Below, in pieces: positions 42,365 to 52,248 of a stretch of 64,000 bases of DNA. Position numbers and translations under genes: made by a program. This DNA comes from Pyrococcus sp. NA2 (GTDB lineage Archaea > Methanobacteriota_B > Thermococci > Thermococcales > Thermococcaceae). Under the pieces are notes generated by a model. The model did not search any database and had not been told where the DNA came from. It saw nothing but the letters and a program-made list of their open reading frames with translations. The stretch covers positions 558,001-622,000 of the forward strand of contig NC_015474.1 in the NCBI RefSeq assembly GCF_000211475.1, read 5' to 3'. Numbering within the stretch: the first letter of the stretch is position 1; every line of letters begins with the position of its first letter.

Positions 42365-43198
42365 ATGTGGCATTTAACTTGGTTGAGGTTCAAAAAGAAC
42401 AAATTGGGAATGATAGGACTCGGAATAATAATATTTTGGGTTCTCGTCGCGATATTTGCCCCTTTTATAGCACCATATTCCCCAGTTGAACAGCACTTAG
42501 AGGACAGGCTAAAACCTCCATGTAAAGAATACTGGCTTGGAACAGATGAATTCGGTAGGGATATATTCTCGAGAATAGTCTACGGCTCAAGAATTGTGCT
42601 GGTTGTTGGAATAATAGTTGCTTTAATCTCAGCGGCGATTGGAGTGACACTTGGCCTTATCTCTGGGTACTTTGGAGGAAAGGTGGATGAAATCATAATG
42701 AGAACCGTTGACATAGTCTGGGCATTTCCCTCTTTAATCCTAGCATTAGCAATAGTGGCGATACTCGGACCTGGATTGATAAATGCAATGATAGCAATTG
42801 CCCTAGTTGGATGGGCATCCTATGCAAGGGTCGTTAGGGCTGAAACGTTGTCCGTCAAGGAGGAACTATTCATAGAGGCCGCAAGGGCAATAGGAGAGAG
42901 CGACCTAAGGATACTCTTCTCCTACATCCTCCCCAATGTCATGTCCTCAATTCTAGTTTTGATAACGTACAACATCCCCTCCGCAATAATAACGGCGTCC
43001 TCACTAAGCTTCCTGGGTCTTGGAGCTCAGCCCCCCAGCCCAGATTGGGGTTTAATGCTTTCAAGCGCAAGAGTCTACGTGACAAGAGCTCCCTGGTACT
43101 CGATATTTCCAGGATTGGCAATAATGACACTCGTATTAGGTTTCAACTTCGTTGGAGATGGATTGAGAGATGCAATACAACCTGAGAAGGTGAGCTGA
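42365..43198 (+). CDS. oppC: Peptide ABC transporter permease (DppC/OppC type)
   Basis: Second permease, 277 residues, with the typical N-terminal cytoplasmic segment WLRFKKNKLGMIGL, LGTDEFGRDIFSRIVYG and the loop VRAETLSVKEELFIEAARA. ATG 42365 has AAGGAG five bases upstream. An ATG directly after the oppB stop (42330) is in another frame, separated by a run of eight A's. One extra A would join it, so either the start is 42365 or the tract is phase-variable; the former is simpler. Confidence 0.92.
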   Translation: MWHLTWLRFKKNKLGMIGLGIIIFWVLVAIFAPFIAPYSPVEQHLEDRLKPPCKEYWLGTDEFGRDIFSRIVYGSRIVLVVGIIVALISAAIGVTLGLISGYFGGKVDEIIMRTVDIVWAFPSLILALAIVAILGPGLINAMIAIALVGWASYARVVRAETLSVKEELFIEAARAIGESDLRILFSYILPNVMSSILVLITYNIPSAIITASSLSFLGLGAQPPSPDWGLMLSSARVYVTRAPWYSIFPGLAIMTLVLGFNFVGDGLRDAIQPEKVS

Positions 43199-43199
43199 A

Positions 43200-44171
43200 G
43201 TGAGTGGGGAACCCCTGGTTAAGATCGAGAACCTATACGTTGACTTCATTACCGATAGGGGAATAGTCAAAGCGATAGATGGAGTATCCTTTGATATAAG
43301 GAAGGGAGAGATACTTGCCCTCATAGGAGAGACTGGCTGTGGAAAGAGTGTAACGGCAAAGGCCATCATGAGACTACTTCCAAGGAATGCAATAGTAAAG
43401 GGGAAGATCATATACAAGGGCAGAAATCTCCTCGAACTTCCTGAAAGAGAAATGAGAAAGATAAGGGGAAAAGAGATAGCAATGATCTTCCAGGATCCTC
43501 TAACCTCCTTAAATCCGGTCTTCACGATAGAGGATCAAATGGGAGAAATGTTCAAGATACACAAGCTACCCGTTGTTGGAAGTATACTGGATGAAATAGT
43601 AAACCTCCTAAGGCTGGTCAAGATTCCAGATCCAGAGAGGAGGGTGAAATCTTACCCATTTGAGCTTAGCGGTGGAATGAGACAGAGGGTCATGATAGCA
43701 ATGATGCTCTCCGCAAAGCCAAACCTTCTAATAGCGGATGAACCTACAACTGCATTAGATGTTACAATTCAAGCCCAAATAATGAACCTGATGTTAGAAC
43801 TAAGAAAAAAATTTGAAACATCAATCCTACTAATCACCCACAATCCAGGGGTCGTCGCCGAGATGGCGGACAGAGTAGTTGTAATGTACGCGGGTCAGAT
43901 AGTCGAGATAGCTCCAGTTGAAGAGATATTTGACAACCCCCTTCACCCTTACACTCAGGGTCTTCTGAGGGCATTGCCTAGAGGACACAAAACGGAGAGA
44001 GAGCTGGAGAATATACCAGGCAGAGTTCCCAACCTTTTAAACCCCCCGAAGGGGTGTAGATTTCACCCGAGATGTAAGAGAGCTAAAGAAATCTGCAGTA
44101 AAGAGAAGCCCAAACTAATAGAAGTTAGCAAGGAACATTACGTTGCATGCCACCTCTACGGGGGTGGATGA
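43200..44171 (+). CDS. oppD: Peptide ABC transporter ATPase (DppD/OppD type)
   Basis: First ATPase of the importer, 323 residues. Walker A is GETGCGKSV, the signature LSGGMRQR, Walker B LLIADEPT, and the H-loop THNPG. The C-terminal oligo_HPY domain has CRFHPRCKRAKEIC, a cysteine pattern usual for this subfamily. The start GTG is one base after the oppC stop with AAGGTGA upstream. oppF begins just after its stop. Confidence 0.94.
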   Translation: MSGEPLVKIENLYVDFITDRGIVKAIDGVSFDIRKGEILALIGETGCGKSVTAKAIMRLLPRNAIVKGKIIYKGRNLLELPEREMRKIRGKEIAMIFQDPLTSLNPVFTIEDQMGEMFKIHKLPVVGSILDEIVNLLRLVKIPDPERRVKSYPFELSGGMRQRVMIAMMLSAKPNLLIADEPTTALDVTIQAQIMNLMLELRKKFETSILLITHNPGVVAEMADRVVVMYAGQIVEIAPVEEIFDNPLHPYTQGLLRALPRGHKTERELENIPGRVPNLLNPPKGCRFHPRCKRAKEICSKEKPKLIEVSKEHYVACHLYGGG

Positions 44172-44172
44172 A

Positions 44173-45204
44173 ATGAAGGACTTCATTGTAACCGAGAACC
44201 TGAAGAAATACTTCCCAGTACGTGGGGGACTTTTCAAGCAAAAGAATCTCTACGTTCACGCGGTTGATGGGATAAGCATAAGTATAAGGAAGGGAGAAAC
44301 ATTTGGATTGGCAGGAGAGAGTGGCTGTGGAAAGAGCACCTTTGGAAGGCTACTCCTTAGGTTAATAGAACCTACGGAGGGAAACATATACTTTGATGGA
44401 ATAGAAATAACGAGGCTAGATAAGAATGAAATGCGTAAAGTTAGAAGAAGAATGGGCATAGTCTTTCAAGATCCAAAGTCCTCTCTGAATCCAAGGATGA
44501 CGATTTATGATACCCTTAAGAGGCCACTTGAAATCCATGGATTGGCTGAAAGTGAAGAGGAGAAATATGACAAAATAGTAAAGATACTTGAGGCCGTTGG
44601 ACTTGGAGAGGAGCATCTAAGTAGGTACCCCCACGAGCTAAGTGGAGGGCAACTACAAAGGGTCAGCATAGCGAGGGCAATAATAACAAACCCAGATTTC
44701 GTTGTATTGGATGAGCCAACCTCAGCTTTAGACATCTCGGTTCAGGCCCAGATATTAAATCTTCTAGTCGACCTTCAAAGGAAATTTGACCTAACATACC
44801 TCTTCATCTCCCACGACATCTCAGTCCTCCAGTACATGAGTGATAGAATAGGAATAATGTACCTTGGAAAGATAGTTGAGATACTCAGCATAGATGACTT
44901 TAGGAAGGGAGAGATATACCATCCATATACCGCATATCTTCTACTCTCAACTCCAGCATTGCATCCAAGTAAAAGAACATCAGAGAAAGTCATCTTAACA
45001 GGAGAAGTTCCAAGTCCAATAAATGTTCCTCCTGGATGTAGATTCCACGTCAGGTGTCCATTTGCTACTCAAAAATGCAAGGATGAGGAGCCTCGGCTTA
45101 TGGAAATAAAAAAGGATCACTATGTTGCATGCTACTATCCAGATAAGACGAGAGAAGAACTTGGTCCTCTAGTTAAGGAGAAACTTAAGATGTACTCGCT
45201 TTAA
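44173..45204 (+). CDS. oppF: Peptide ABC transporter ATPase (DppF/OppF type)
   Basis: Second ATPase, 343 residues from ATG 44173. Walker A is GESGCGKST, the signature LSGGQLQR, Walker B FVVLDEPTS and the C-terminal CRFHVRCPFATQKC. A longer frame from 44143 has no ribosome site of its own. It ends the operon; a T-rich stretch (about 45213-45247) downstream probably terminates transcription. Confidence 0.94.
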   Translation: MKDFIVTENLKKYFPVRGGLFKQKNLYVHAVDGISISIRKGETFGLAGESGCGKSTFGRLLLRLIEPTEGNIYFDGIEITRLDKNEMRKVRRRMGIVFQDPKSSLNPRMTIYDTLKRPLEIHGLAESEEEKYDKIVKILEAVGLGEEHLSRYPHELSGGQLQRVSIARAIITNPDFVVLDEPTSALDISVQAQILNLLVDLQRKFDLTYLFISHDISVLQYMSDRIGIMYLGKIVEILSIDDFRKGEIYHPYTAYLLLSTPALHPSKRTSEKVILTGEVPSPINVPPGCRFHVRCPFATQKCKDEEPRLMEIKKDHYVACYYPDKTREELGPLVKEKLKMYSL

Positions 45205-45239
45205 ATTATGGTCTCCTTTTTATTTTGGATTTTGAGGGT

Positions 45240-45466
45240 TTTTTAATTCTCTTTTAGTCTTATTGGAACATATATACTTTGGCGGAAACCAAACTTTTTT
45301 TAAGTCTTATTAGAACGGTAGTAAGAAACAGCTTCAAGAACGCGGTTGACGCACTTGAAAGGTCGACAGCCATTCTCTTTTTTATAGTATTATTGGAACC
45401 GTTGATGCGAGAGAGGCTGTATACAAGGCTGTCGACCTTTCAATTCTCTTTTAGTCTTATTGGAAC
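45240..45466 (+). CRISPR. Degenerate CRISPR remnant (one intact repeat, three decayed)
   Basis: A full 30-base Pyrococcus-type repeat lies at 45437-45466 (starts CTTTCAATTC, ends TTATTGGAAC). A copy with two changes lies at 45240-45269. Two decayed copies end at 45316 (TTATTAGAAC) and 45399 (TTATTGGAAC). Repeat ends are 47, 83 and 67 bases apart; only the last fits a normal repeat plus 37-base spacer. The first 10 bases of sequence before the intact repeat, together with seven repeat bases, recur inverted at 45355-45371 (TTGAAAGGTCGACAGCC). No cas gene is nearby, so this is a relic or an orphan mini-array. Confidence 0.7.
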
Positions 45467-45598
45467 ACCAATAATGCTAGTTGCCGATAACATAGCATAC
45501 TTCGGACGAGAAGCGTATGAAAAGAAATACCTGAACAAACAACACTTGCCAAGATAAAAGCCCAACTCAGAAGACTCGGAATAGAATTAGTAGAATAA
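45467..45598 (+). pseudogene. Frameshifted 3' fragment of an unknown gene
   Basis: Just after the intact CRISPR repeat, the + strand encodes MLVADNIAYFGREAYEKKYL then NKQ. After a one-base shift it continues TLAKIKAQLRRLGIELVE and stops at 45596-45598. Both halves read like genuine protein with Lys/Glu-rich helices, so I infer the C-terminus of a decayed gene whose front was lost. The family is not recognised. It could belong to the element remnant to its right. Confidence 0.4.
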
Positions 45599-45690
45599 AG
45601 GGGGCACGGCGTTCGCCAAGCCCGCCTCACGAGAATTCCGGGCCGTCATCATTTTTCCGAACCCAGACCTCACTCGGCGGGCAACCCCCG
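45598..45690 (-). ncRNA. GC-rich structured RNA candidate with its own promoter
   Basis: A GC-rich island in AT-rich surroundings. GGGGG/CCCCC ends pair (45600-45604 with 45685-45689), GCCCGCC pairs with GGCGGGC (45620-45626 with 45676-45682), and GGCGTTCGCC (45608-45617) forms a hairpin. On the - strand a TATA-like TTTTATAT lies at about 45711-45718, some 25 bases before the start of the outer stem, the correct archaeal spacing, and a T-rich stretch follows the 3' end. GC-rich RNA genes (hgc families) are known from Pyrococcus; I cannot tell which, if any, this is. Confidence 0.55.
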
Positions 45691-45867
45691 AACCAAACTA
45701 AACCCCCAACATATAAAACCCTTTCTCCCCCCATTGCCAAGTCCACGACAATCCGAAAACATTACTATTAAAAGAAGAAAGAAAAATGCATGAGAGTGCA
45801 ACGCGACAAGCGATGAAAAAACTCTATAAATAGTTGTTACATAATCGTCTATGGACGGTGAAACGTC
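45691..45867. other. Gap before the helical/PIN gene pair, with promoter
   Basis: Holds the - strand TATA-like element of the RNA candidate (45711-45718) and, for the + strand, CTCTATAAATAG at 45821-45832, some 25-35 bases before the probable start of the message for the gene at 45868. No other coding potential is seen. A C-rich stretch at 45717-45740 is unexplained. Confidence 0.5.
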
Positions 45868-46584
45868 ATGGAGACATCGCAGGCAATAACAAGCTCATGG
45901 GATTACATACTAGTGGATCGATTCGTTAATGAATTATTTGACGGAGTTTTGGGATCATTAGACCCTCGCTTTTCCTCAGATTACGTAATTCGAAAAAAAC
46001 ACTTGTCAAAAGTCTTTAAGGACTTACTCCAACTAAAAACACTATCTCCTGACCGAAAAGAAACGATCCTAAATAAACTCATCGGAGCCCTCCCAAAATA
46101 TCCTCACAAAGTTGCATACCTGGAAGCAAGAAGGAAAATGATGGAAATTCTTAAAGAAGAATTACCAGACATCACCAGAGACCTAGACAGGCTTTACAGA
46201 TACATCGACTTACAAGAGGTAGAACAATCCCTCAAAATTGATTTGATAAAACAAAAAGGATACATAGCCTCATTAAGAGAAGCAATCAACGAGCTAATAC
46301 TGACAGAGGACTTACCTCCAGAAGCCATCCAAAAGTATCTACTCCTAGACCAAGCCCTCTCACTCTTAGTTTCCCTCTATGAAAAAGTAATAAACAGCGG
46401 AGGCTTAATAGGAGTCGAAAAATACGGCCATTACATCATAATCCTACTCCTAAGAATATACAGCATATTAAAGAACCAAGAGAGCATTGAGAACCTTGAA
46501 GGGGATATAATCGAAATAGCCCCATTAGTGTCCAAAGCCGGAGATCTGAAGGCCCTACAACTAGCGGCTAGCCTGGTGAAATGA
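45868..46584 (+). CDS. Unknown all-helical protein, partner of a PIN protein
   Basis: I do not recognise this 238-residue protein. It is predicted helix throughout, with no cysteines, no membrane segment and no nucleotide motif. Charged amphipathic helices (MMEILKEELPDITRDLDRLY) suggest a protein-binding role. GGTGA stands nine bases before the ATG, after a clear TATA box. The PIN gene starts one base after the stop, so they are translated together. By position it could be an antitoxin or regulator of the PIN nuclease, but it is much larger than VapB and lacks an obvious DNA-binding domain. Confidence 0.65.
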   Translation: METSQAITSSWDYILVDRFVNELFDGVLGSLDPRFSSDYVIRKKHLSKVFKDLLQLKTLSPDRKETILNKLIGALPKYPHKVAYLEARRKMMEILKEELPDITRDLDRLYRYIDLQEVEQSLKIDLIKQKGYIASLREAINELILTEDLPPEAIQKYLLLDQALSLLVSLYEKVINSGGLIGVEKYGHYIIILLLRIYSILKNQESIENLEGDIIEIAPLVSKAGDLKALQLAASLVK

Positions 46585-46585
46585 G

Positions 46586-47302
46586 TTGGAGATAGTGTTC
46601 CTAGACACGAACTTACTTTATGCCTTCCTCTTGGAAAACGATGCTCACCACAAACTTGCCAAAGAGATAATTGAGAAGTTACTGAAAAATCGAACTCCAA
46701 TAATAATTCCCGAAGCGGTTTATAGGGACTTAAGGAGAAGCTTCCACAGAAAATACCTGAATGCTGAAGCCCACTTAATATACTTTTATCAAAAAGCCCT
46801 CAGATCTGGTCTAAAAAGGGAAGAAGAGATATACAAGTACGTTGAGAACAACCTTTTAGAATACGCACTCAAACATGATAAGAAATCCCTAAATATGTAC
46901 CAGTACCTCCTTGATTACATTAAAAAGAACAAGTTATTCTCACCAGAAAAGAGACCACTCCTAACACAAATTCTCGATAATCACCTCATAAAAATCCTGT
47001 CAAAGCTGAAACCAGTTGAAGAACAGACAATCCACCTAACACTTGGAGATAGGGAACTAGACATATATAAGGACATTTACAATAAAGTTAGCCCAATGTT
47101 CAAAGATGAAGCCGACGCAGAGATATTCTGTCAAATAGCAGCCACAATAGCAAGTGAAGATGAAACTAAAGATGAGATAAAATACAAACTATGCACTACA
47201 GATAGAGAATTCGCAAAGACAGGAAACAAGGCAATTGAGATATTGAATAAAGAGGGATACAAAATAAACCTCGAAATACAATACCTTAAAAGAGAAGACT
47301 AA
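46586..47302 (+). CDS. PIN-domain ribonuclease-like protein with helical insert
   Basis: PIN-fold nuclease candidate of 238 residues. Acidic residues match the PIN site: Asp7 (VFLDTNLLYAFL), Glu43 (IIPEAVYRDL), Asp174/Asp177 (MFKDEADAEIF) and Asp206 (CTTDREFA). Between Glu43 and Asp174 lies a helical insert of about 110 residues, making it far longer than VapC toxins (about 130). The start is TTG, one base after the previous stop, with GGTGA upstream. It may be a toxin or an RNA-processing enzyme. Confidence 0.75.
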   Translation: MEIVFLDTNLLYAFLLENDAHHKLAKEIIEKLLKNRTPIIIPEAVYRDLRRSFHRKYLNAEAHLIYFYQKALRSGLKREEEIYKYVENNLLEYALKHDKKSLNMYQYLLDYIKKNKLFSPEKRPLLTQILDNHLIKILSKLKPVEEQTIHLTLGDRELDIYKDIYNKVSPMFKDEADAEIFCQIAATIASEDETKDEIKYKLCTTDREFAKTGNKAIEILNKEGYKINLEIQYLKRED

Positions 47303-47709
47303 CCAATTATCCAAATTATAAGCTATGAATATTGCCACTAACCTGCCACTACGACACCCGCCGAAAGCTCGCATTTGCTTATTTCTCCAGACAGAATGAA
47401 CAAACAATTCCAATGCTCGATCAAGCCATAGGCGTTATCCTACAACAAATAATGAACCACATACTAGATTTGATAATAGAAGATAACTTCCGTATCTAAA
47501 TACTCACCGACAAAGCCTTTCTAATGGTTAGTGCAATATACATTAATGCTCAGGAATTTTGTCTGTAGATCACCTTCATTCAGACAATCTTTATATAGGG
47601 AGTAAATTAAATTAGAAAATGAGAAGGGCGGTCACGCCCCCACAGTAAGTTTCATACTTTTTCTCACCATTCTTTTAATCCATAACCCTCAATTTCGCCA
47701 TTTGGACCC
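47303..47709. other. Convergent gap with a gene-like remnant and a TATA-driven hairpin
   Basis: Between the PIN gene and the convergent DUF3800 gene. Around 47330-47500 one + strand frame, without a usable start, reads like a protein tail (AFAYFSRQNEQTIPMLDQAI... ending EDNFRI), possibly a gene remnant. Near 47590-47597 a TTTATATA box is followed, some 30 bases on, by the hairpin GGGCG-GTCA-CGCCC (47626-47639) and a TTTTTCTC run at about 47658-47665, which could be a short RNA or terminator. Confidence 0.35.
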
Positions 47710-48513
47710 TTATCCATTAATTCCTCCAACAATAGAATAATACAACTTAAAATTGAAACCCTTTTTAGGTTTAACGCCAAGCCTCTCTTCCTTAATCCTT
47801 CTAACAATAACATAACTTAGAACATCTGCCAGTTGAATGCCAATCATTCTATAGGATTCTACAAATAAGGGCGGAAGAATAACATACTTAGACTCAGGAA
47901 TCTTACTAGTATAAATCCCCCTCTCAACTTCCCTAATAACATCCTCCTTTACTTTTGGGTCCATCTTTGGATTACTATCCACAATTAACAACATATATTC
48001 TGGAGAACCTCTAGTTGATATCTGTTTGGAAAGAAACTTAACCAGCCTTTCAAGCAAAAGCTGATAAGTCTTAACCATAGTCCTCCGGCCTACAAGTTTT
48101 ATCTCTCTCTGAGAAAGAGAATTAAGGGAATATCCAGCTGTATTCTCAAGAATCCTTTTCTTATTCATAAGAACACTAATAACTCGCACACTTGGAAAAT
48201 CTCTTAAAAATTTAAACAATTCATTAATAAAACCACTTCTCGCACTCGAACTAATTCCCTCATAGTTCTTTTTTCCATGAACAATTTCGCTCATATGAAT
48301 TTCCTTAAATTTGGGAGAAGTGCCCTGGAACAAATTCAACCTTTGAAATTCTTCAGAAAAGTACTTTCTCCAAATTTCCCTAACCCCTTTCTCAAGCCAG
48401 AATAAGTAATCATCATGAATTATTAAAGCCGTTAAGGCATAATAAGGAGACTCGTCAAGAGCCTTTTGAGAATAATTGTAGTCCCCACTTTCATCTATAA
48501 ACGCTATCCACAT
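47710..48513 (-). CDS. DUF3800 family protein
   Basis: 267-residue protein with the DUF3800 hallmarks: N-terminal IAFIDESGDYNYS, a central LLIVDSNPK stretch and the C-terminal SYRMIGIQLADVLSYVIVRR. These acidic positions recall an RNase H-like active site, and DUF3800 genes are frequent on mobile elements and in defence islands; the activity has not been established to my knowledge. The gene lies 60 bases downstream of the PD-(D/E)XK gene on the same strand and is probably co-transcribed. Confidence 0.78.
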   Translation of the reverse strand: MWIAFIDESGDYNYSQKALDESPYYALTALIIHDDYLFWLEKGVREIWRKYFSEEFQRLNLFQGTSPKFKEIHMSEIVHGKKNYEGISSSARSGFINELFKFLRDFPSVRVISVLMNKKRILENTAGYSLNSLSQREIKLVGRRTMVKTYQLLLERLVKFLSKQISTRGSPEYMLLIVDSNPKMDPKVKEDVIREVERGIYTSKIPESKYVILPPLFVESYRMIGIQLADVLSYVIVRRIKEERLGVKPKKGFNFKLYYSIVGGING

Positions 48514-48573
48514 AATCCCCCACCCATAATTATTTTCAAAATTATTATCAAAAATATATTAGGCGGAATTTAG

Positions 48574-49572
48574 TTACCTTATGATAATTCTCCTCTTTCC
48601 TTCCTTTATTATAATTTCCCTGGACTTGCCTTTCCTTTTTACAGTTCCTTCTAAAACAACAACTTCAACTCCGAGACTCTTTAACTTCCTGGTATATCCA
48701 TCAAGATTAACATTGGCACCAACGTCCAAAATAACAGCAATGACCTCATCGAGATACTCAATATAGTCCAGAACCTGGCCAACTAGCCTCTGGAGCTTTC
48801 CCCTACTCTCTGCAATCTTAACTTCGATCCCAATCCTCCCATCAATAACAACATCAATCTTTTGATCTCCAATGGGATACTGACGTTGCACCCTACTCCC
48901 AAATCTAGCTCTTAAAAACTGATACAGCTGCTTTTCAAGGTCTTCCTCGTCTCTAACAGTTTCAGGTTCAAAATCCATCAGAACATCAACAATGTCAGGT
49001 TCTGAAGTTCCTTCCTCAGCACCCTCTTCAAAAATTTCTATATCCTCTTCTAATTCAACACCCTCTATTTCAGAAACGTCCTCTCCAAAAATTATTCTCT
49101 TGTATTCCTCAAGCTCCTCTAATTTTTGCTTCTTAAACTCAGCCAACCTTGCATTAGCTTCTTCCAACCACCTATTGAACTGGTTCACAACATTAGCCGA
49201 CTTGACCTTATACCTCCTACAAACATCTACGACATCTTCCAGCGACAATTTAGAGGCAATTAGATCAACAAGTTCACTCTTACTCCTAATCTTAACCTTC
49301 CTTTCCTCACCATTTTCAATAACAACACGATATGTAGGAATCCCCTTAGCAGCGCAAACAGCCTCAAGTTGCTTCATCTTCAACTGAGATAAAAGCTCCT
49401 TCTTAACTTCCATCTCTCTCCTTTTAACTTCCTCTCTAAAAACTCTTTCAGCCCTAGAAATTTCCATTTTAATCTCCAACGCTTTCTTCCTATATTTTGC
49501 CTCCTTAGCCGCCCTATCAACAGCCCTCTTGGTAACTTCACTCGCCTTCCTAAAGAAATCCCTAAACCCCAT
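48574..49572 (-). CDS. PD-(D/E)XK nuclease-domain protein with helical N-terminus
   Basis: 332 residues. The first 60 are a charged helix (FRKASEVTKRAVDRAAKEAK). A SAP-like segment around 65-125 (MKQLEAVCAAKGIP... SKSELVDLIASKL) may bind DNA, followed by a coiled coil and an acidic linker (about 165-205). The last 120 residues fit a PD-(D/E)XK nuclease: Glu in DEEDLEKQLYQFL, Asp in KIDVVID, then GIEVKIAES with the E-x-K pair. Substrate is unknown; a role in the island's own replication or in defence is possible. GGAGGGTGG precedes the ATG. Confidence 0.68.
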   Translation of the reverse strand: MGFRDFFRKASEVTKRAVDRAAKEAKYRKKALEIKMEISRAERVFREEVKRREMEVKKELLSQLKMKQLEAVCAAKGIPTYRVVIENGEERKVKIRSKSELVDLIASKLSLEDVVDVCRRYKVKSANVVNQFNRWLEEANARLAEFKKQKLEELEEYKRIIFGEDVSEIEGVELEEDIEIFEEGAEEGTSEPDIVDVLMDFEPETVRDEEDLEKQLYQFLRARFGSRVQRQYPIGDQKIDVVIDGRIGIEVKIAESRGKLQRLVGQVLDYIEYLDEVIAVILDVGANVNLDGYTRKLKSLGVEVVVLEGTVKRKGKSREIIIKEGKRRIIIR

Positions 49573-49703
49573 TAAACCACCCTCCAGGGATTAATTACAC
49601 CCGTAATTATTACTCATACAAATAAGAAACTTTTGCAAATAGAGGAAAGACTCACAAACCCTATAAGCCCCACATCCGATAAAGAAAATAAGGAGGACAA
49701 CAA

Positions 49704-50048
49704 ATGCAAGAAGCAATAGAGCCACTAGCAAAATTCCATGCTAAAGTTGATAAGAGTGGGCGAGTGATAATCCCAAAATACATCAGGGACATTTACGAGA
49801 TTAACCAAGGGGATTTCGTCGTCATGATAGTTAGAAAGGTTAGAATCGATAAAAAAGATAGGAAAGTCTACGTTTTAAGACAAGTCAAGTTTTCAGCAAA
49901 GGTTAATGAGCGTGGAGTTGTAGTTGTCCCAAAACAACTCAGAGAACACTTAGATATCAAGCCAGGGGATCTTCTTGAAGTTCTACTTATGGATCATTAT
50001 AAATCAAACGAGCATGCTCATACAACAACCTATACATACATTTTTTGA
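49704..50048 (+). CDS. Protein with two tandem AbrB/SpoVT swapped-hairpin domains
   Basis: Small DNA-binding protein of 114 residues built from two AbrB-type units in one chain: FHAKVDKSGRVIIPKYIRD (about residues 9-27) and FSAKVNERGVVVVPKQLRE (about 58-76). AbrB domains normally work as dimers, so a tandem repeat could form a complete unit alone. The C-terminus is short and His/Thr-rich. AGGAGG stands before the ATG. It is probably a transcription regulator of the island; alternatively an antitoxin-like protein without a toxin beside it. Confidence 0.8.
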   Translation: MQEAIEPLAKFHAKVDKSGRVIIPKYIRDIYEINQGDFVVMIVRKVRIDKKDRKVYVLRQVKFSAKVNERGVVVVPKQLREHLDIKPGDLLEVLLMDHYKSNEHAHTTTYTYIF

Positions 50049-50717
50049 ACGTTTAATATATACTATAAAATTAATTCTGTTAAAAGAACTAAGCCCTCAG
50101 ACAACTGAATTCCAAACACCTCCTTTTCTTTTCATATTTTTCGGATGAAAATTTGCTTTGAAATTATTAAGCTTTTGTTATCACGTCTTCCCTTTAGTAG
50201 ATACTTTAAATGTCATGTCTTCTCTAAATACAATTTTCTGAATTGGTCTTCAAAAGTAGTAGATCTCACGAATTCAAAAGACATTATGCATTATTCTTAA
50301 ACTTCAAGTGCTAAGGATGAAAGCCCTTCTCTTATTTTCTGCAAAGCCCATAGAAACTTCTTCAATAAGATATCCGCATTATTCTGCCATTCTGTTGGTA
50401 AAGAAGCACCTAGATTTATTCCAAGCTTTTTTAGTATTAGGTGAAGACCCGATTAAAGCGGTAAAGCTAGCGAAGGATAGGGTTTGAGCGAGTGGTTGTG
50501 AGTCAAGCCAAAGGAGCGTGATGACGATGGCTTGCATGAACAATAACACTACCTTGTTATCATCGTTTTTCCCTCAATGTCTTCCTTGTGTAAGCAGGGG
50601 AATTCGTTGCATAAGCCAGAATAGTTCGCACTTTTGTTACTATACCCAAACCTACCCACAAGAGGTTGAAAACTCAAAACACATGCTTATACAAATAAAT
50701 TGTATGGTGATGTGACT
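50049..50717. other. AT-rich gap between island genes
   Basis: About 670 bases without a secure gene. At 50317-50487 a 56-residue frame reads as protein (see that entry). A TATA-like CTTATACAA at 50688-50696 lies about 22-30 bases before the ATG at 50718. A 65-residue frame starting 50518 has AAAGGAG before it but reads as low-quality, Cys-rich sequence. No repeats or tRNA fragments were found. Confidence 0.5.
50317..50487 (+). CDS. Possible small protein or gene remnant
   Basis: A 56-residue frame from ATG 50317 to TGA 50487. Its second half (HYSAILLVKKHLDLFQAFLV followed by LGEDPIKAVKLAKDRV) has the regular hydrophobic spacing of a real helical protein. The start has only a weak AAGG upstream. 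It could be the C-terminal remnant of a longer gene of the island. No family is recognised. Confidence 0.3.
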   Translation: MKALLLFSAKPIETSSIRYPHYSAILLVKKHLDLFQAFLVLGEDPIKAVKLAKDRV

Positions 50718-51062
50718 ATGCCAAGGAGGCCTGTCTATCCTGAGTACGTTGTCGTGAGGATTCCAAGAGAGATAGTCGAGATTTACGAAACACAAATCTT
50801 TGAACTCTTATTCTCCAAGGAGGAAGCAAAAATGGCAAAGAAAATTGTTGAGTTCATCAAAACACATGAAAGATTATATCCAGATGAATACAAAGAGTTC
50901 GTCAAAACTCCTGCTGACAAGGCACGTTACTTCAGAGTCATAAGGAAAATGGTTAGTTTGGGAATGATTAAGCGAGGAAAAGAGGGTTCATACATATTAA
51001 GTGATGAATTCGCCCATAAACTTGGAGCAATGATAGAAAAATGGAGAGCAATTCTAAGGTGA
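50718..51062 (+). CDS. Small predicted DNA-binding protein next to the integrase remnant
   Basis: 114 residues from ATG 50718 (MPRRPVYPEYVVVRIPREIV), with GGTGATGTG upstream; a frame from 50700 is less likely. The second half reads like a winged helix: YFRVIRKMVSLGMIKRGKEGSYILSDEF (segments), ending in a helix. The family is not recognised by name. Its stop overlaps the region with the ribosome site of the integrase remnant, so the two were probably one operon on a mobile element. Confidence 0.6.
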   Translation: MPRRPVYPEYVVVRIPREIVEIYETQIFELLFSKEEAKMAKKIVEFIKTHERLYPDEYKEFVKTPADKARYFRVIRKMVSLGMIKRGKEGSYILSDEFAHKLGAMIEKWRAILR

Positions 51063-51067
51063 TCACC

Positions 51068-51322
51068 ATGAGCATATTTATCCTCAAGAACAATATTACA
51101 AATGGTGGGTCAATGTGGGACAACAGGCCCACGGAACTAACAGGGCTCTCAACAGAGATTCGGCAAATTACTGGCAGAAGAAACGATATCATCTTTACTT
51201 GTATAAAGGCTTGGTCGAGGAAGTTCGCAAAAGAGGCTATAACTTGTCGCAGGTGGTAAACATGATTCTTGCAGCAATTGTTTCACAAGAAGACGCTCTG
51301 ACAAGACTACAAAAACAGATTG
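51068..51322 (+). pseudogene. N-terminal integrase remnant, int(N), frameshifted at its start
   Basis: From 51071 one frame reads HIYPQEQYYKWWVNVGQQ, then RYHLYLYKGLVEEVRKRGYN and LSQVVNMILAAIVS, and runs without a stop straight into the 3' end of tRNA-Gly. This is the arrangement left by SSV-type archaeal integrases, whose attP lies in the 5' part of the gene. No start codon is in frame near the beginning. ATG at 51068, preceded by AGGTGATC, is one base out of frame; adding one G (ATGGAG instead of ATGAG) restores it. I infer a one-base deletion. A GTG at 51115 is the only in-frame alternative. The int(C) half is not in the window. Confidence 0.6.
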
Positions 51323-51400
51323 TGGTGCGGTGGCCGGGATTTGAACCCGGGTCGCCGGCTCGGAAGGCCGGCGTCCTAGACCAGGCTAGACTACCACCGC
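51323..51400 (-). tRNA. tRNA-Gly (anticodon TCC)
   Basis: Read on the - strand it begins GCGGTGGTAGTCTAGCC and folds as a cloverleaf: acceptor GCGGTGG/CCACCGC, anticodon stem GCCGG/CCGGC around CTTCCGA (anticodon TCC), T loop GGTTCAAATCC. The 3' CCA is encoded (51323-51325). It served as attachment site for the element whose int(N) remnant abuts its 3' end. Confidence 0.95.
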
Positions 51401-51406
51401 ACAAGC

Positions 51407-51483
51407 TGGTGGGGCGGGGGGGATTTGAACCCCCGACACCCGGATCTTCAGTCCGGTGCTCTCCCAGGCTGAGCTACCGCCCC
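51407..51483 (-). tRNA. tRNA-Phe (anticodon GAA)
   Basis: Read on the - strand it begins GGGGCGGTAGCTCAGCC, with acceptor GGGGCGG/CCGCCCC, anticodon loop CTGAAGA (GAA) and GGTTCAAATCC T loop. CCA is encoded (51407-51409). It is six bases upstream of tRNA-Gly, and both are likely one transcript. tRNA-Phe is the substrate of the Trm5a/wyosine enzyme encoded at 7879-8883. Confidence 0.95.
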
Positions 51484-51540
51484 ACCCTCGAAATTTATGG
51501 TTAAAGAAGGTTTTTATAAACCTTGCGGTCAACTAAGTAC
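51484..51540. promoter_or_regulatory. Shared promoter between tRNA-Phe and the biotin ligase gene
   Basis: A single near-palindromic TATA region (GGTTTTTATAAACC, 51509-51522) lies about 25 bases from both the tRNA-Phe 5' end (- strand) and the ATG at 51541 (+ strand). It can serve either direction, making the ligase message leaderless. Confidence 0.55.
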
Positions 51541-52248
51541 ATGCTTGGACTTGGAACTTCCATCGTGGGAAAACAGGTCATCTATTTAAGGGAGGTAACT
51601 TCAACGAACGAGTACGCCCTTCTTAACAATTTCCCTGAGGGAACGGTTATAGTTGCCGATAGGCAAATTAAGGGGAGGGGAAGGCTTGGAAGGAAATGGG
51701 AATCACCTGAAGGAGGTCTGTGGATGAGCGTTGTTCTAAAGCCGAGGGTCTCAGCAAATGATTTGCCTAAACTCGTATTCCTTGGAGCACTCTCAGTTAT
51801 CGATGTTTTGAAAGAGTTTGCGATTGAAGGCAGGATAAAGTGGCCCAATGATGTTCTCGTGAACTACAGGAAGATATCGGGAATACTTGTGGAGGGAAGG
51901 GGAGACAATTTCGTTCTTGGCATAGGTCTAAACGTTAACAATGAAGTTCCCGAAGGTGCAACATCGATCAAGGCCGAACTGGGGACGGAGGTCTCTCTTA
52001 CGGACATCTTTAAGAAGCTCGTTCTGTCCCTCGACGAGCTATACTCCCTCTTTTTGAAGTCTCCATCAAGGATATTAGAGCTGGCGAGGGAGAACATGAT
52101 ACTTGGAGTTAGGGTTAGGGTCGGGAATATAGAGGGGATTGCTGAAGATGTTGATGACTTCGGGGCATTAATCGTCAGGCTTGACACTGGAGAAACTAGG
52201 AGGGTGGTGCACGGAGATGTTTCACTTAGGTTCCTCGAGCATATCTAA
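51541..52248 (+). CDS. bpl: Biotin protein ligase, monofunctional
   Basis: Attaches biotin to the carboxylase/decarboxylase carrier protein through biotinyl-AMP. From ATG 51541 it is 235 residues, the size of the P. horikoshii enzyme, with the same start. The biotin loop [15 protein letters not shown] is at about residues 45-59, KWPND at 100-104 and the catalytic lysine at 111 (YRKISG). There is no helix-turn-helix, so it is not a repressor. A second, degraded BirA homologue lies at 61454. The message is probably leaderless (TATA about 25 bases upstream). Confidence 0.96.

Follow-up and report, generated by a model that had tools for sequence, protein, structure and literature searches.

Probable right arm of a pT26-2-like plasmid at tRNA-Gly(TCC) in Pyrococcus sp. 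NA2, with a candidate leader ORF overlapping the integrase start

An integrase fragment reads into tRNA-Gly(TCC)

The 64,000-nt stretch of the Pyrococcus sp. NA2 genome analyzed here (NC_015474.1, positions 558,001 to 622,000; the window) carries an intact tRNA-Gly(TCC) gene on the reverse strand (51323 to 51400), with a tRNA-Phe gene adjoining it on the same strand (51407 to 51483). A preliminary description of this DNA had reported a protein-like frame running without a stop into the 3′ end of tRNA-Gly and had interpreted it as the scar of an SSV-type integrase with attP inside its gene. The forward-strand frame (...YYKWWVNVGQQ...RYHLYLYKGLVEEV...) is indeed free of stops into the tRNA-Gly 3′ end and onward to a stop codon at 51502 to 51504, an openness far beyond chance. 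It is the N-terminal fragment, int(N), of a pT26-2-type (SSV-type, "suicidal") tyrosine integrase (51115 to 51322, forward strand) and is intact from GTG 51115 to the att core.

Using the frame without its tRNA part as the query, matches were found in 21 of 94 Thermococcales genomes at an E value of 0.001. The four best foreign matches (E values of 1e-39 to 2e-33, 76 to 83% identity) are int(N) sequences that each run into a tRNA-Gly gene, the best lying at G011:C1:1255553-1255780. When the tRNA part was included, five strong matches were obtained, the query itself among them (E values of 5e-75 to 4e-53, 78 to 100% identity), and all 94 genomes matched because of the tRNA itself, the weaker matches being mostly to the tRNA part. 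In G011, a 46-bp repeat is present in two copies, which together delimit the segment from 1,238,312 to 1,255,830; these are the limits published for the element PyaCH1_IP16 (PMC6972569), and G011 was thus identified as P. yayanosii CH1. The nearest relative of the peptide, a search for which had been proposed, is int(N) of PyaCH1_IP16 (87% identity over 69 residues). Between 51115 and the att core, comparison with P. yayanosii shows 5, 5, and 18 differences at codon positions 1, 2, and 3, respectively, as expected of a gene read in the int frame. The frame also matches pGE2, whose gene is annotated as an integrase, with 38% identity over 77% of the frame length (E value of 7e-4).

The catalytic domain PF16795 (Phage_integr_3) was detected in int(C) of P. 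yayanosii and in the pGE2 and pT26-2 integrases (E values of 6e-43 to 2e-55), and its presence in these homologues, together with the int(N) matches, bears out the integrase assignment; the int(N) fragment in the window ends before this domain. The int(N) part had no match in the phage collection, its own Pfam matches were all below the cutoff, and no relative was found in a scan of viral contigs; a scan of genome contigs yielded four loci. A ribbon-helix-helix fold for int(N) was considered and rejected: the hints were weak (CcdA, E value of 0.0015, below the cutoff), the AlphaFold model had a mean pLDDT of 73 with no Foldseek match at an E value of <1, and a PDB sequence search gave nothing convincing.

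The att core (51323 to 51368) comprises the 46-bp 3′ part of tRNA-Gly(TCC). It is identical to the 46-bp repeat that bounds PyaCH1_IP16 on either side, where int(N) and int(C) flank the same core, and this identity supports the past integration event that had been proposed. As in SSV-type (type I, suicidal) integrases, attP lies inside int, the int(N) frame continuing through the att core and the tRNA; as in Thermococcales members of the pT26-2 family, a type I integrase targets the 3′ end of a tRNA gene. No second att copy was found outside the tRNA genes in the whole genome: a 38-nt stretch of the att core, allowing up to three mismatches, gave three matches, all complete tRNA-Gly genes. In other genomes, seemingly empty tRNA-Gly sites (L017, L018, L019, L022, and L031) were seen by eye to retain 20 to 40 bp similar to the int(N) 3′ end; these may be small scars, or the tRNA trailer may be conserved.

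Cargo genes and left end of the island

Element DNA extends from approximately 45467 to 51322, about 5.9 kb. The gene next to int(N) (50721 to 51062, forward strand) belongs to the phage transcriptional-regulator family phrog_32591 (E value of 3.7e-19) and shares 67% identity with the int neighbor of P. yayanosii and 77% with a copy in P. abyssi. Relatives of this gene closely precede int(N) in the same orientation, with gaps of up to ~500 nt, in 11 of the 25 loci matched by the frame without its tRNA part, the window included. Copies with 54% identity were also observed in four genomes (L114, L115, L116, and L117), with no tRNA gene in the surrounding 3.3 kb. A short homologous remnant of the right arm (50536 to 50631, forward strand) was identified by blastn to the P. 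yayanosii element, and the stretch from 50536 to 51070 matches a P. abyssi remnant collinearly at 76%. L126 (2522 to 4769, at the tRNA-Gly CCC of G004, which we take to be P. abyssi) is another right-arm remnant, with the 77% int-adjacent gene and an AbrB-like gene; it has a different int(N), likewise preceded by an out-of-frame leader ATG.

Further to the left lie an AbrB/MazE-like regulator (49704 to 50048, forward strand; 44% identity to t26-20p of pT26-2; Pfam MazE_antitoxin, E value of 5.3e-14) and a predicted nuclease (48574 to 49572, reverse strand; phrog_28707, E value of 3.6e-30). The nuclease adjoins the AbrB-like gene in the G041, G054, G071, G037, G038, and G040 stretches, among others, and does not do so in the G083 and G073 stretches. 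The remaining cargo consists of a DUF3800 protein (47710 to 48513, reverse strand; E value of 5.9e-16), which is unmatched in the G041 element and has a 33% homologue in the G071 stretch, a PIN-domain protein (46586 to 47302, forward strand; Pfam PIN, E value of 5.2e-6), and an uncharacterized gene upstream of it (45868 to 46584, forward strand). The last two have homologues in the same order in the G041 element, with 59 and 62% identity, respectively. PADLOC returned nothing for six island proteins.

A 97-bp block (45708 to 45804) is 98% identical to one in PspNA2_IP1, a second element of the same genome (G000:C1:1214078-1214173), and only 75% identical to those of pGE2 and G005. Either the site is strongly conserved or the two elements exchanged DNA recently within this genome. 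The left end of the element DNA is a C-terminal pseudogene fragment with a frame change (45471 to 45598, forward strand), related to a frame in PspNA2_IP1 (E value of 8e-9). Its similarity to the C terminus of t26-18p of pT26-2 is weak (13 residues, E value of 0.062), and t26-18p as a query against the window gave no match at the E value threshold of 1e-3.

On the host side of this end are decayed CRISPR repeats (45240 to 45466, forward strand), with two matches of at most three mismatches where none were expected. The recognizable repeats are at 45240 to 45269 and 45437 to 45466, and since the fragment matching PspNA2_IP1 follows the second directly, the start of the element DNA was placed near 45467. 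At this place in G004 (P. abyssi), a full CRISPR array separates the orthologue (95% identity) of the window gene at 44143 to 45204, presumably an oligopeptide-transporter ATPase, from tRNA-Gly, and no element is present. Loss of the left arm seems to have removed most of the CRISPR array as well.

Relatives and origin of the island

Seven core genes are common to all pT26-2-family members (PMC6972569), and none was found here. Using 29 of the 32 annotated pT26-2 proteins (all except t26-12p, t26-19p, and t26-21p) against positions 43001 to 52000 of the window, only t26-1p, the integrase, and t26-20p matched at an E value of 1e-3, and the ORFs of the P. yayanosii element gave no core-gene match across the entire window and the 20 kb to its left. 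Five variable genes are collinear with those of the core-bearing G041 element. The island is accordingly classed as a pT26-2 right-arm remnant and not as a family member.

PyaCH1_IP16 occupies the same tRNA-Gly(TCC)/tRNA-Phe pair beside the same flanking gene, which we take to be biotin-ligase-like, and shares with the island the 46-bp core, int(N), and int-adjacent gene. It differs in being complete, with a core module and int(C), and in its cargo. The pT26-2 plasmid (GU056179) has in common with the window the integrase start, an out-of-frame leader ATG, and the t26-20p homologue; in contrast, it is a free, complete plasmid, most of whose genes are absent from the window, and its target is listed as tRNA-Arg (PMC6972569).

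The G041 element, located at tRNA-Glu(TTC), carries the int-adjacent gene, AbrB-like gene, nuclease, PIN gene, and uncharacterized gene arranged and oriented as in the window, and this collinearity of a pT26-2-like right arm supports the earlier placement of the right border of an accessory island at tRNA-Gly. Beyond the cargo, the G041 element continues with t26-16p to t26-13p, t26-11p to t26-3p, and int(C), all of which are absent from the window. Its int(N) is divergent, unmatched by the window int(N) as a query and recognized by eye as readable into the tRNA, and its leader ATG is in frame with int.

PspNA2_IP1 belongs to the pT26-2 family and shares a type I integrase, the int-adjacent gene, and the 97-bp block with the island. 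However, it retains the core module and int(C), resides in tRNA-Val, and has an integrase only ~40 to 47% identical. In the single-contig genome of 1,861,320 bases, its integrase halves match from 1,199,690 [int(C)] and at 1,221,541 to 1,221,804 [int(N)], at the published limits of 1,199,678 to 1,221,811 (PMC6972569). It is the only element listed for Pyrococcus sp. NA2 in main-text passages of that paper, and the island provides a second pT26-2-type integration site for this genome.

To the left in the chromosome, int(C) preceded by a partial copy of tRNA-Gly had been predicted. This arrangement was sought genome-wide and was not found: int(C) of P. yayanosii detected only int(C) of PspNA2_IP1 and tRNA-encoded residues. 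The left arm of the element has been lost, and the island is an unremarkable fossil from a known family of elements. It very probably represents the right arm of a pT26-2-like plasmid that integrated at tRNA-Gly(TCC) and subsequently lost its left arm, which would explain the accessory island as a plasmid fossil. Such a plasmid would have integrated by means of its own SSV-type integrase, and because attP lies within int, integration would have split the gene, joining int(N) to the rebuilt tRNA and placing int(C) at the far left end. A later loss would have taken the left att copy, int(C), the core module, and part of the adjacent host CRISPR locus, leaving a fragment of an element gene joined near 45467 to a CRISPR repeat. 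The 5.9-kb island would then be the remaining right arm, with cargo genes, the AbrB-like gene, the int-adjacent regulator, and int(N), and would no longer be excisable by its own integrase. We infer both the order of these events and a single deletion as their cause; the simplest account is that a deletion reached from the CRISPR locus into the element.

Several features count against the right-arm explanation. No core gene of the family is left, so that the element type is judged solely from the right arm; the window int(N) does not match that of the collinear G041 element; and the DUF3800 gene and the 97-bp block are placed otherwise than in G041 or PspNA2_IP1, from which it follows that some patchwork occurred. 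The absence of the family-defining genes would also suit another mobile element, such as a virus or a pAMT11-like plasmid, carrying a pT26-2-type integrase; integrases are described as shared between element types, with those of the pT26-2 type occurring on other element families too (PMC8371274). Such an origin is improbable given the t26-20p homologue, the fragment that also occurs in PspNA2_IP1, and the collinearity of the cargo with that of the complete G041 element, which bears the core.

Start codon of the integrase

The preliminary description had assumed that a one-base loss right after ATG 51068 broke the integrase N terminus. In favor of this, that ATG has a good Shine-Dalgarno sequence and is offset by one base from the integrase frame, and pGE2, PspNA2_IP1, and the G041 element have an ATG in frame. 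However, an out-of-frame ATG at the same offset was found in P. yayanosii, G042, G005, G093, pT26-2, and most related loci, and in the type plasmid pT26-2 the annotated GTG start of the integrase t26-1p lies further in and aligns with GTG 51115 of the window. Furthermore, 21 of the 24 loci that have a leader ORF (see below) share its frame. The integrase start codon is GTG, TTG, or ATG in 20 aligned loci: in 15 it is the codon 72 nt before an HLYL anchor, and in the remaining five it is an NTG that lies 1 or 3 codons farther out. Inactivation by base loss is thus refuted by pT26-2 and retains next to no probability; judged from these alignments, the integrase start is GTG 51115, which corrects the earlier assignment. 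The region from ~51058 to 51114 is leader and is open in the int frame by happenstance.

A Shine-Dalgarno-like GGTG (51104 to 51107, forward strand) is positioned 7 nt 5′ of the integrase start, and 21 of 25 loci have GGTG in the 16 nt that precede their start codon. Motifs resembling GTGGGYC, spaced by ~10 bp, surround the integrase start (51104 to 51132) and were also seen by eye in pGE2 and PspNA2_IP1; these are putative binding sites.

An out-of-frame leader ORF before the integrase

ATG 51068 opens a leader ORF of 63 codons (51068 to 51259, forward strand) that overlaps the integrase start. It is preceded by AGGTGAT (51057 to 51063), and a further ATG in the same frame is present 27 nt upstream, at 51041. 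Related loci were assembled from the 25 matched by the frame without its tRNA part: three were dropped as truncated or decayed (G084, G079, and G007:926593), and pT26-2 and pGE2 were added to the other 22, giving 24. Four of these (G072, which is broken, G043, G007a, and G005b) were left out of a 25-locus set, the 20 retained being the loci aligned above. Five loci were added to this set via the neighboring gene or tRNA (G041, G071, G090, G085, and P. abyssi). The leader ATG in the 25 loci was partly chosen by eye, as were both ATG and start codon in the five added loci and the start codon in the five with 1 or 3 extra codons.

Across the 25 loci, the distance from the ATG to the int start is 44, 47, 50, 53, or 92 nt in 22 (2 mod 3) and 54, 54, and 99 nt in three (0 mod 3), with none at 1 mod 3. 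Clustering at 75% identity reduced the 25 loci to 13 clusters, 11 out of frame and two in frame; the leader frame is kept across strongly divergent elements. Before the int start, the ATG frame contains no stops in 408 codons, versus 31 and 28 stops, each in 405 codons, in the other two frames; composition shuffles gave a mean of 23.1 stops and a minimum of 10.

A scan by a fixed rule, which removes the choice of ATG, was applied to 29 loci (the 24 plus the five added). The rule accepts an ATG with a Shine-Dalgarno 4-mer ending 4 to 11 nt before it, and the most upstream ORF spanning the int start is counted. Such an ORF was found at 24 of the 29 loci, out of frame as in the window at 21, in the int frame at three, and in the third frame at none. 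No spanning ORF satisfied the rule in G043, G005b, G007a, G040, or G072, one of which has a third-frame ATG. Counting all ATGs that satisfy the rule in the 29 loci, 26 are out of frame as in the window, four are in frame, and one is in the third frame. In G043, an ATG at 56 nt in the same frame as the leader opens an ORF that ends after 5 codons; in G007a and G005b, third-frame ATGs at 13 and 103 nt open ORFs of 10 and 12 codons.

An overlapping protein-coding gene in the leader frame was considered and found no support. Substitutions are concentrated at third positions of the integrase frame, no third-position excess was found in the leader frame (270/207/215 over 34 leader positions in 11 loci with 53-nt leaders), and the openness of the leader frame inside int was ordinary relative to synonymous shuffles of 23 loci (P values of 0.057 to 0.708). 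These shuffles used a fixed −72 offset, which places the start 1 or 3 codons off in PHV1, G023, G093b, pGE2, and PspNA2_IP1; the stop counts for the 25 loci use corrected starts. The missing codon-position signal in the peptide, the ordinary openness inside int, and the five loci lacking a spanning ORF all weigh against a function of the leader.

We therefore put forward only tentatively, as a possibility well short of an even chance, that a translated leader ORF precedes the suicidal integrases of the Thermococcales, starting mostly 44 to 53 nt before int and overlapping it in a −1-related frame, and that this ORF may act as a brake on int translation or, less likely, as a frameshift module. 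Our best guess is that the leader is an overlapping upstream ORF that would lower integrase translation. The frame bias at the 24 spanning loci would also suit ribosomes reading from ATG 51068 into the integrase by programmed −1 frameshifting, yielding an N-terminally extended protein, and a canonical slippery heptamer lies in the overlap at 8 of 22 out-of-frame loci. However, a heptamer of this kind is lacking at the other 14, pT26-2 and the window among them, and an NTG start of its own, mostly preceded by GGTG as described, is available to the integrase; frameshifting accordingly appears an unlikely use of this leader. Were the leader a functional brake, an enzyme that destroys its own gene would be under conserved control at the level of translation, and how a self-destroying integrase stays quiet until needed would become testable. 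Titles and abstract openings contained no mention of a leader ORF before such integrases, with Badel 2020 outside this scope. At some loci a second upstream ATG is found in another frame, and in G085 one of these is in frame with int.
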